From IMG/VR virus record IMGVR_UViG_3300036826_000317, positions 1-20,831 of that record: a stretch of 20,831 nucleotides of DNA. One strand, given 5' to 3'. Made by a program: the position numbers and the translations under genes. The notes under the pieces are model-generated. The model was not told where the DNA came from. It saw only the letters and a program-made list of their open reading frames with translations, and did no database searches. Positions 1,542 to 3,240 of this stretch are shown here, piece after piece. Numbering within the stretch: the stretch's first letter is position 1; each line of letters starts with the position of its first letter. This stretch comes from a virus.

Positions 1542-1570
1542 AGTATATATACAGTTGACAGACAGCGCAA
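1542..1570 (-). promoter_or_regulatory. Predicted promoter of the left (early-type) minus-strand operon
   Basis: On the minus strand there is TTGCGC (1570-1565), a 17-nt spacer, then TATACT (1547-1542), five of six bases of the sigma70 -10 consensus. The start of transcription would fall near 1535, about 20 nt before the ATG at 1514. The -35 is only a half match. The promoter overlaps the plus-strand promoter at 1555-1583, so the two would compete for RNA polymerase. Confidence 0.55.
1543..1552. promoter_or_regulatory. Perfect palindrome GTATATATAC, candidate operator
   Basis: The 10-bp perfect palindrome GTATATATAC covers part of the minus-strand -10 box and lies just upstream of the plus-strand -35. 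Ribbon-helix-helix dimers bind short palindromes of this kind, and such a protein is encoded next door. Occupation would block the minus-strand promoter directly. It is AT-rich, so the symmetry could be a by-product of the TATA-like -10 element. Confidence 0.35.
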
Positions 1571-1583
1571 GAGCCCCTAAGTT
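1555..1583 (+). promoter_or_regulatory. Predicted promoter of the ribbon-helix-helix/winged-helix genes
   Basis: A perfect -35 TTGACA (1555-1560), a 17-nt spacer and a partial -10 TAAGTT (1578-1583) face the plus-strand genes. The ATG at 1591 lies 7 nt beyond the -10, where transcription would normally start, so the mRNA may have no leader. The -35 lies inside the spacer of the opposing promoter. Confidence 0.5.
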
Positions 1584-1590
1584 GTCTCCC

Positions 1591-1782
1591 ATGAACGTCA
1601 GCGCGACATTATCCATCCGACTGGAACCCAAGGACGCGCGGTCCGTCCGGCGGGCGGCTAAGCTGGCCGGGTTCAAGCACGTATCCGTCTATGCCCGGAA
1701 GCTCCTCTTAGAAGGAACAGACCGCGACCTCGCCCAAGCCGAGCACGACCGGCAGTTTGAGGAGAATGGGACCACAACTTGA
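1591..1782 (+). CDS. Ribbon-helix-helix (Arc/CopG-like) DNA-binding protein
   Basis: The 63-residue protein begins MNVSATLSIRLEPKDARSVR. The pattern is a short beta strand (ATLSIRL), helix one (PKDARSVRRAAKLAGF), a turn, then helix two (SVYARKLLLEG), as in Arc/MetJ/CopG repressors, which dimerise and insert a two-stranded ribbon into the DNA major groove. It is followed by an acidic tail (AEHDRQFEENGTTT). The start at 1591 is preferred over a TTG at 1555, which lies inside the -35 box. No Shine-Dalgarno is evident and the promoter predicts a leaderless transcript. Its position, divergent from the left operon and overlapping its promoter, suggests a repressor of that operon and perhaps of itself. 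An antitoxin role is the alternative, but the partner gene does not look like a toxin. Confidence 0.7.
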   Translation: MNVSATLSIRLEPKDARSVRRAAKLAGFKHVSVYARKLLLEGTDRDLAQAEHDRQFEENGTTT

Positions 1783-2116
1783 ATTGACCTACGAGCCAGC
1801 GTTAGACCGGGAACGGTTGTCCCGCCTCCTCGGAGCTGTCCTTCAGGCGTTGCGATCGGGTGCCTGGCTAACGCTGGCTGAAATCCGCGAACGCGCCCAG
1901 CATGGTAGTGAGGCGGGGATCTCGGCGAGAATCCGCGAATTGCGCGACTGCGGGTTTGTGATCGAGCGGAGGCGACGGGGCAATCCCGCGCGGGGCTGGT
2001 GGGAATACCGCATGACGGGGGGACGGTTCCGGGTGCTGCCGAGTGACTTACGCCAGGCGCGGAAGGCGAAGCGTCTAGTGTGTCCCCAGCCAATAGCCGA
2101 CGCCCGCCCCGAATAG
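1766..2116 (+). CDS. Winged-helix DNA-binding protein
   Basis: The 116-residue protein has a winged-helix core at about residues 20-75: a helix (LSRLLGAVLQALRSGAWLTL), AEIRERAQ, a recognition helix with SEAGISARIRELRDCGF, then a basic wing (VIERRRRGNPARGWWEYRMTG). The motif ISARIRELR followed by ERRRRGNPARG-WEYR is common in small phage proteins that I know as hypothetical HTH proteins. It overlaps the ribbon-helix-helix gene by 17 nt, so the two are one transcription unit. The ATG at 1766 has GAGGAG only one or two bases upstream; a TTG at 1757 is possible. The 3' end runs 42 nt into the convergent spanin-like gene. Likely a transcriptional regulator; the target is unknown. Confidence 0.7.
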   Translation: MGPQLELTYEPALDRERLSRLLGAVLQALRSGAWLTLAEIRERAQHGSEAGISARIRELRDCGFVIERRRRGNPARGWWEYRMTGGRFRVLPSDLRQARKAKRLVCPQPIADARPE

Positions 2117-2641
2117 CAGACCCACCTCAAGCATGTTCGCCCGACTCGGGCAGCCCACATGCGTAATGAGCAAATTGATCTGACAGCGGGACGCTTCAAT
2201 CTGCCGACTCAAGGCCGCCGTCAGGGTATCCACCCGCACCTGGAGAAATTGCCGCGCCACGCTGCACTGCTGGACGGCAAGCGCTTCCGCAAAGTAGGCG
2301 GAGTCGCAGGCTTCCCCCGCCGCCTCGAGATGTGCCAGCACCATAGGAAAGAGGGCGAGCGATTCGGCTGGTGTCTTGGCGCCGGTCAGACTATCGAGCG
2401 CCGCCTGATAGCGCAGATGCCAACGCTGCTCCAATGCATGGGCCTTCGCCGCATCCGCCTGGCTCATCTGGATTGCTGCGGTAAATGAATCCTGCTGCAT
2501 CTGGAACCGACCAGCAAGCGCCACGAGGGCCCGGTTGTGATTGGTGACCTCGGGCTCCGGGGAATCTTGGCCGATCATGCGGACCAGATGTAGCCCGATC
2601 ACAAATGCGAACCCGTAGGCCACCCACTTAGCGGGGGTCAT
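2075..2641 (-). CDS. Spanin-like membrane-anchored coiled-coil protein, end of lysis cassette
   Basis: The 188-residue protein has an N-terminal hydrophobic segment (about residues 6-22, WVAYGFAFVIGLHLV), a long helical periplasm-type region with charged heptads (about 40-160) and paired cysteines, and a second hydrophobic stretch at the C-terminus (LEVGLLFGAGVGYWLG). N-in, C-out anchored coiled coils at the end of a lysis cassette suggest an inner-membrane spanin (Rz-like), but the C-terminal hydrophobic segment is not typical and I find no Rz1-type lipoprotein nested in it. If the C-terminal segment enters the outer membrane, it could act as a one-component spanin. It overlaps the upstream 37-residue gene by 14 nt. 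It ends inside the convergent winged-helix gene. Gene status is firm; the spanin role is inferred. Confidence 0.65.
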   Translation of the reverse strand: MTPAKWVAYGFAFVIGLHLVRMIGQDSPEPEVTNHNRALVALAGRFQMQQDSFTAAIQMSQADAAKAHALEQRWHLRYQAALDSLTGAKTPAESLALFPMVLAHLEAAGEACDSAYFAEALAVQQCSVARQFLQVRVDTLTAALSRQIEASRCQINLLITHVGCPSRANMLEVGLLFGAGVGYWLGTH

Positions 2642-2741: not shown

Positions 2742-2851
2742 CCATGGCCCTCCCGCACCAAGGTGAACTGGCCCCCGTGCCGCCCGCGGACAGGTCCCGA
2801 GAGTTCCCAATCACCGCGCCTGGCCCGAACGGTCCAACCGGGGGCGCTCAT
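2705..2851 (-). CDS. Possible 48-aa gene coupled to the endolysin
   Basis: A short frame starts MSAPGWTVRARRGDWELSGP immediately after the endolysin, with its ATG overlapping the endolysin stop (ATGA). It reads 48 codons to a TAG at 2707-2705 and overlaps the 37-residue membrane gene by 37 nt in another frame. The product would be small, basic and rich in Trp, Arg and Gly (GRHGGQFTLVREGHG), with no membrane segment. The stop/start overlap matches the habit of this operon, and otherwise 106 nt here would be empty, which is unusual for the locus. No family is recognised. It could also be a chance reading frame. Confidence 0.4.
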   Translation of the reverse strand: MSAPGWTVRARRGDWELSGPVRGRHGGQFTLVREGHGCARLQRFPYQR

Positions 2852-3240
2852 TCGTCCGCTTCAATCAGCGTGGAGGATAGGGCCTGCGGGTTACACCCAA
2901 TATGCCAGTGGCGATCGGTCGCGCTAAACACCATTTCGAGCTCGATGGGATGGGGCGCCTCGGACTCCATGACGACCAGCGCCGCCACCAGCGCCCATTT
3001 CTGGCGCGTCGTCCAATCGCGGGATCGGATGTCCACGGCCAGCCCGAGCTGGTGGAGGGACTGCGCCCCCGCGCCCCCAGTGGGGTTCTCGCCGGGGAGC
3101 CGGGCATCGTCGGTAATCACCATCGGCACCCCGGACCGCTCCCGCACCCGGTCGAGCCATCGCACAAAGGCGGTATTCATCAAGTTCGGATGCTGAAATT
3201 CCGCGATCGTGAAATGGGTCAAGTCATCCGGGACCGGCAT
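2848..3240 (-). CDS. Endolysin, M15 family (VanY/T5-type) L-alanyl-D-glutamate or D-Ala peptidase
   Basis: The 130-residue enzyme carries the M15 zinc-peptidase signature: SLHQLGLAVDIR (S-x-H-x2-G-x-A-x-D, first His and Asp ligands) at about residues 73-84, a Glu before it replaced by the segment EMVFSATDRHWHIG near residues 102-115, where HWH supplies the last zinc ligand. The N-terminal part (FTIAEFQHPNLMNTAFVRWLDRVRE) matches the usual helical lead of Peptidase_M15_3/4 proteins. These enzymes cut peptidoglycan stem peptides; in phages such as T5 they are the endolysin. The start at 3240 is preferred because its ATG overlaps the stop of the upstream membrane gene (TAATG). There is no signal peptide, so a holin would be needed for release, and several small membrane genes stand just upstream. 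Confidence 0.85.
   Translation of the reverse strand: MPVPDDLTHFTIAEFQHPNLMNTAFVRWLDRVRERSGVPMVITDDARLPGENPTGGAGAQSLHQLGLAVDIRSRDWTTRQKWALVAALVVMESEAPHPIELEMVFSATDRHWHIGCNPQALSSTLIEADE

Follow-up and report, generated by a model that had tools for sequence, protein, structure and literature searches.

Interleaved divergent promoter motifs in a candidate control region between late and probable early genes of a viral contig

The viral record IMGVR_UViG_3300036826_000317 was analyzed over its whole length of 20,831 bases (hereafter, the window); the record is classed as linear and is thus probably a fragment. From 20,779 down to 2,075, all genes lie on the minus strand in a late run encoding the small and large terminase, portal, protease, major capsid, neck and tail proteins, followed by a lysis region with an M15 peptidase endolysin. 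The endolysin gene (2848–3240, minus strand; PHROG 894 endolysin, E = 8.5e-9) marks a lysis module beside the region studied here. After the late run come a two-gene plus-strand operon (1591–2116) and then small minus-strand genes, which continue from 1514 until the contig ends. Between these two groups lies a 76-nt gap (1515–1590), the only spot in the window at which genes diverge. At the other side of the operon, the second plus-strand gene and the last gene of the late/lysis run (2075–2641, minus strand) meet tail to tail, their 3′ ends overlapping by 42 nt (2075–2116). No terminator-like site was found at this overlap or, on the minus strand, between the late genes and 1514, and a search across the window for Rfam RNAs and tRNAs returned none.

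The gap contains two candidate sigma-70-type promoters on opposite strands. On the plus strand (1555–1583), a perfect −35 hexamer, TTGACA (1555–1560, 6/6), is separated by a 17-nt spacer from TAAGTT (1578–1583), which matches the −10 consensus at 3/6 positions and retains the TANNNT positions; transcription is predicted to start at 1590/1591. On the minus strand (1570–1542), TTGCGC (1570–1565, 3/6, with only the TTG of a −35 element) is followed after 17 nt by TATACT (1547–1542, 5/6), with a predicted start at the G at 1535 that would leave a 21-nt leader before the first minus-strand gene. The hexamers, spacers, coordinates and strands thus agree fully with the two promoters that a first-pass annotation had reported here, and the interlock that it described is also present: the plus −35 element lies inside the minus spacer (1548–1564), and the minus −35 element lies inside the plus spacer (1561–1577). 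Each pair is the top-scoring site on its own strand within 1480–1640, and neither passes a stricter consensus scan. The contig has just two exact copies of TTGACA, both on the plus strand. Judged from the motif positions, the two predicted starts are 55–56 bp apart. With such starts and interleaved −35 boxes, polymerase binding would be mutually exclusive if both promoters work, and simultaneous occupancy by two polymerases is unlikely on this geometry.

Promoter-like sequences arise readily by chance, and their expected frequency was estimated in three ways. Dinucleotide shuffles of the whole contig contained 0.52 overlapping divergent pairs of like quality per 20.8 kb. Because at least one such pair occurred in 36% of the shuffled contigs, an overlapping pair somewhere in the contig is by itself not significant. 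When 76-nt windows were drawn at random from the contig, 1.0% contained a plus site scoring 9/12 or better, 5.7% a minus site scoring 8/12 or better, and 0.25% both; in shuffles of the gap itself, which keep its AT-richness, the corresponding values were 2.8%, 20% and 0.7%. The presence of the pair at the sole divergent gap is therefore probably more than chance. Since a comparable plus site is the rarer of the two in both tests, the plus promoter carries most of the support and is the stronger case, the minus promoter being the weaker.

Independent support for the plus promoter comes from its position relative to the first plus-strand gene (1591–1782). Its −10 element and the ATG at 1591 are separated by 7 nt, and the gene has no Shine-Dalgarno sequence, a feature present at many other genes in the window; a leaderless mRNA is therefore predicted, starting at 1590/1591 with essentially no leader. 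Among the 30 gene starts that we examined, a TANNNT motif 4–9 nt upstream was found only at this gene, against a background of 1.7% of positions. Likewise, the combination that defines leaderless genes at the sequence level, TANNNT directly upstream of the ATG with no Shine-Dalgarno sequence, occurs at this gene alone in the window. A −10 element beside the open reading frame is an established signature of leaderless genes in Deinococcus-Thermus (PMC12340547), and the mRNA of the lambda cI repressor, which begins at its AUG, is the classic leaderless case (PMC3017554).

The 63-aa product of this gene is plausibly a ribbon-helix-helix (RHH) protein, a call that draws on Pfam matches below threshold, the coding score and the start context. 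Its matches are to NikA-like (E = 6.6e-4, 20.2 bits against a cut-off of 27) and DUF6290 (E = 0.019, also below cut-off), residues 4–42 agree by eye with a strand-helix-helix pattern, and a single-sequence model of the monomer is of low confidence. The second gene (1766–2116, plus strand) overlaps the end of the first, an arrangement that makes translational coupling of the two likely. It encodes a 116-aa protein with a match to the Pfam family HTH_39 just below the cut-off (E = 6.7e-4, 19.9 bits against 21.3) and an ambiguous coding score. Its single-sequence model, again of low confidence (pLDDT 67), has the order helix-helix-helix-strand-strand, which is plausible for a winged helix, and a Foldseek search with this model gave no match in the PDB. 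The pairing of an RHH with a winged-helix protein on one side of the gap, as proposed earlier, is thus plausible from sub-threshold profile matches. The further proposal that an Arc-type protein takes the place of a cI/cro pair exceeds the evidence, the RHH matches falling to the families named above and not to Arc or Mnt. No relatives of the two proteins were detectable in IMG/VR or annotated phages, none of the winged-helix protein in GTDB genomes, and queries with both against 38 terminase-related contigs came back empty. A toxin-antitoxin reading of the operon was considered and is unsupported; the second gene matched no toxin-type family. In Mycobacterium phage PenguinLover67, the N-terminal part of gp52 (L082, 4001–4222), annotated as an exonuclease, resembles the winged-helix protein, though the match (37% over 71 aa, E = 0.3) is not strong enough to rely on.

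Across the gap, the first minus-strand gene (1320–1514) encodes a 64-aa zinc-ribbon protein with a CxxC-x13-CxxC pattern and weak DksA-like matches (E = 0.011 in PHROG, 0.051 in Pfam), and is not preceded by a Shine-Dalgarno sequence. It is followed by genes on the same strand for a 62-aa orphan protein of no convincing family (1135–1323, Shine-Dalgarno AGGAG), a 47-aa protein with a hydrophobic, membrane-like segment (995–1138, a frame within the open reading frame at 995–1450), a 117-aa orphan protein (667–1020, Shine-Dalgarno AAGGAGG, the best coding score in this frame) and a 140-aa orphan protein (248–670), and by an incomplete open reading frame that leaves the contig end (1–270, Shine-Dalgarno AGGAG). 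The 47-aa and 140-aa entries are readings of the sequence. The latter protein has an N-terminal zinc ribbon and an acidic C-terminus, DDDSTLPF, which resembles the C-terminal peptide of single-strand-DNA-binding proteins (SSB), and is possibly an early DNA-metabolism protein; it gave no convincing family or database match. Searches with the zinc-ribbon and tail proteins of this side in IMG/VR, GTDB genomes and annotated phages yielded nothing usable, and no region homologous to the gap was found.

A comparative guide to the minus-side genes comes from two IMG/VR contigs, G024 and G025 (L109, L110), whose terminases are about 44–45% identical to that of the window. On one strand of G025, an M15 endolysin gene precedes an RHH gene that lies directly upstream of an SSB gene and a ParB-like gene; of this series, G024 has the RHH, SSB and ParB members. 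Common to the window and these contigs are a related terminase, an M15 lysis gene (in G025) and, where early-type genes begin, a small gene encoding an RHH protein, in the window a plausible one. Because SSB and RHH genes follow the same lysis slot in these relatives, the minus-side genes of the window are plausibly early, and the earlier assignment of early-type genes to this side is supported by that analogy. The arrangements differ in strand: in G024 and G025 the RHH gene runs in the direction of the early genes, whereas in the window it diverges from the probable early genes. They also differ in the gap itself, which in G025 (L109, 2123–2143, minus strand) contains three TTGTTCGAC repeats at exactly 10-bp spacing, located between a terminator-like hairpin and the early genes that include the RHH gene; the window lacks them. 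By sequence, these repeats make a far stronger operator candidate than any found in the window. Two further terminase relatives (L114, 1453–1638; L112, 1498–1689) have a small RHH-like gene with the large terminase gene immediately on one side and the next head gene on the other, a location that is unusual for a regulator of this type.

The gap of the window contains a perfect 10-bp palindrome, GTATATATAC (1543–1552), which spans the minus −10 element and is unique in the window; it is a possible operator, or only AT-rich melting DNA. The gap also contains a 13-nt imperfect direct repeat. Its palindrome and direct-repeat content is equaled or exceeded in about 62–63% of contig windows, and no significant operator repeat emerged from this comparison with background. 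A LexA-type operator was considered on account of CTGTATATA on the minus strand and was rejected because, as the sequence reads, the second half-site is absent. An 18-mer over the palindrome and the plus −35 element has matches in five IMG/VR contigs of 37–47% GC. Four of the five lie in unrelated contexts, and at the fifth (L098) an unrelated phage has a promoter of similar appearance.

By analogy, the gap may work like the control regions lambda PR/PRM, P22 immI and pLS20 Pc/Pr, each of which differs from it in some respect. Lambda PR/PRM is governed by helix-turn-helix (HTH) repressors at three operators, with promoters further apart, and neither an HTH_3 repressor nor an operator array was found in the window. 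Arc and Mnt of the P22 immI region (mnt-arc-ant) are RHH proteins that act on an antirepressor gene; nothing ant-like was recognized in the window, and the profiles matched by the window protein are other than theirs. In the conjugation switch of plasmid pLS20, Rco is an HTH rather than an RHH protein and uses two operators with CAGTGAAA repeats together with DNA looping; there are no comparable repeats in the window. The likenesses are divergent promoters in a regulator gap and a regulator mRNA that starts at its AUG in lambda (PMC3017554), the latter being predicted in the window, and, in P22, the control of gene expression by Arc and Mnt from a small region inside the late operon (PMC8022706). 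Bacterial bidirectional promoters likewise lie in AT-rich DNA and fire in opposite directions from core elements that overlap, but in that class the starts are 7–25 bp apart with a common −10 region (PMC10268837); the gap, with predicted starts about 55 bp apart and interleaved −35 boxes, does not belong to it.

We favor, at about even confidence, the reading that the gap at 1515–1590 is a divergent control region, autoregulated and placed where the late genes give way to the probable early genes. The gap would separate the late genes for packaging, head, tail and lysis from genes that are probably early. The plus promoter would produce a leaderless mRNA for the small RHH regulator, with the winged-helix protein translated after it, and the minus promoter would drive the short orphan genes at 1514 and below, polymerase probably occupying one promoter at a time. 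The RHH protein would most likely bind this DNA and repress its own gene, the minus operon or both, and such repression may set the timing of early expression. We count against this reading the weak minus −35 element, the first minus-side gene's missing Shine-Dalgarno sequence, the operator repeats at background level, the sub-cut-off regulator assignments and low-confidence models, and the co-directional RHH genes of G024 and G025.

Alternatively, only the plus promoter may be real, the minus-side genes being transcribed by read-through from the late operon or from another promoter, with no exclusive pair. This is the strongest of the alternatives and nonetheless rather unlikely. The minus −35 element matches at half of its positions, equal minus sites are as frequent as given above (5.7% of random windows, 20% of gap shuffles), and no terminator-like site was found on the minus strand that would halt transcription coming from the late genes; on the other hand, TATACT retains the key −10 positions, the spacing is 17 nt, and the predicted start is a purine 21 nt before the first minus-side gene.

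Slightly less probable again is a true lysis-lysogeny switch, in which the phage would be temperate, the RHH protein (with the winged-helix protein) its maintenance repressor and the minus promoter its main lytic early promoter. Many temperate siphophages keep their repressor in a small regulator operon on the opposite strand, flanked by the lysis genes on one side and co-oriented early genes on the other, a location that the plus-strand operon shares. Some of the terminase relatives carry integrases, and a leaderless repressor mRNA would be as in lambda cI (PMC3017554). Against this reading, the 20.8-kb record contains no integrase, tyrosine integrase or resolvase and no cI-like HTH_3 repressor, which is weak evidence because the record is a linear fragment, and there is no operator array. 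With no HTH_3-type repressor gene at the locus or elsewhere in the window, a cI/cro-type switch was rejected. Of the first-pass proposal of a lysis-lysogeny or early-late switch, the overlapping geometry, the plausible regulator pair and, by analogy, the early genes stand, and the label "lysis-lysogeny" exceeds the evidence. The fuller version, in which a temperate phage infecting an uncultured host would have the leaderless RHH and winged-helix operon as its immunity switch and would gain from physically interlocked core promoters the exclusivity that lambda obtains from CI/Cro operators, seems to us doubtful.

An early-late switch by opposing transcription is more improbable still. Plus-strand transcription of the RHH and winged-helix genes would collide with late transcription, which in turn would run antisense through both genes; the 42-nt tail-to-tail overlap, with no terminator-like site found there, would suit such a scheme, but convergent overlaps are common in compact phage genomes. 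Least probable is that the motifs are chance AT-rich sequence, neither pair being used and the region being read by a phage-encoded or non-sigma-70 polymerase: the 36% of shuffled contigs with a like pair and a sigma-70 consensus that may not be that of the host speak for it, and the location in the sole divergent gap, with the plus −10 element as close to the RHH start codon as a leaderless mRNA requires, speaks against it.

If the autoregulated divergent control region is real, it would be a minimal switch of 76 bp whose mutual exclusion could arise from promoter geometry in addition to a repressor. In this phage group, RHH regulators appear to occur in a slot at the junction of the lysis and early genes. 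As it stands, our analysis points to an ordinary type of phage control region in an unfamiliar phage.
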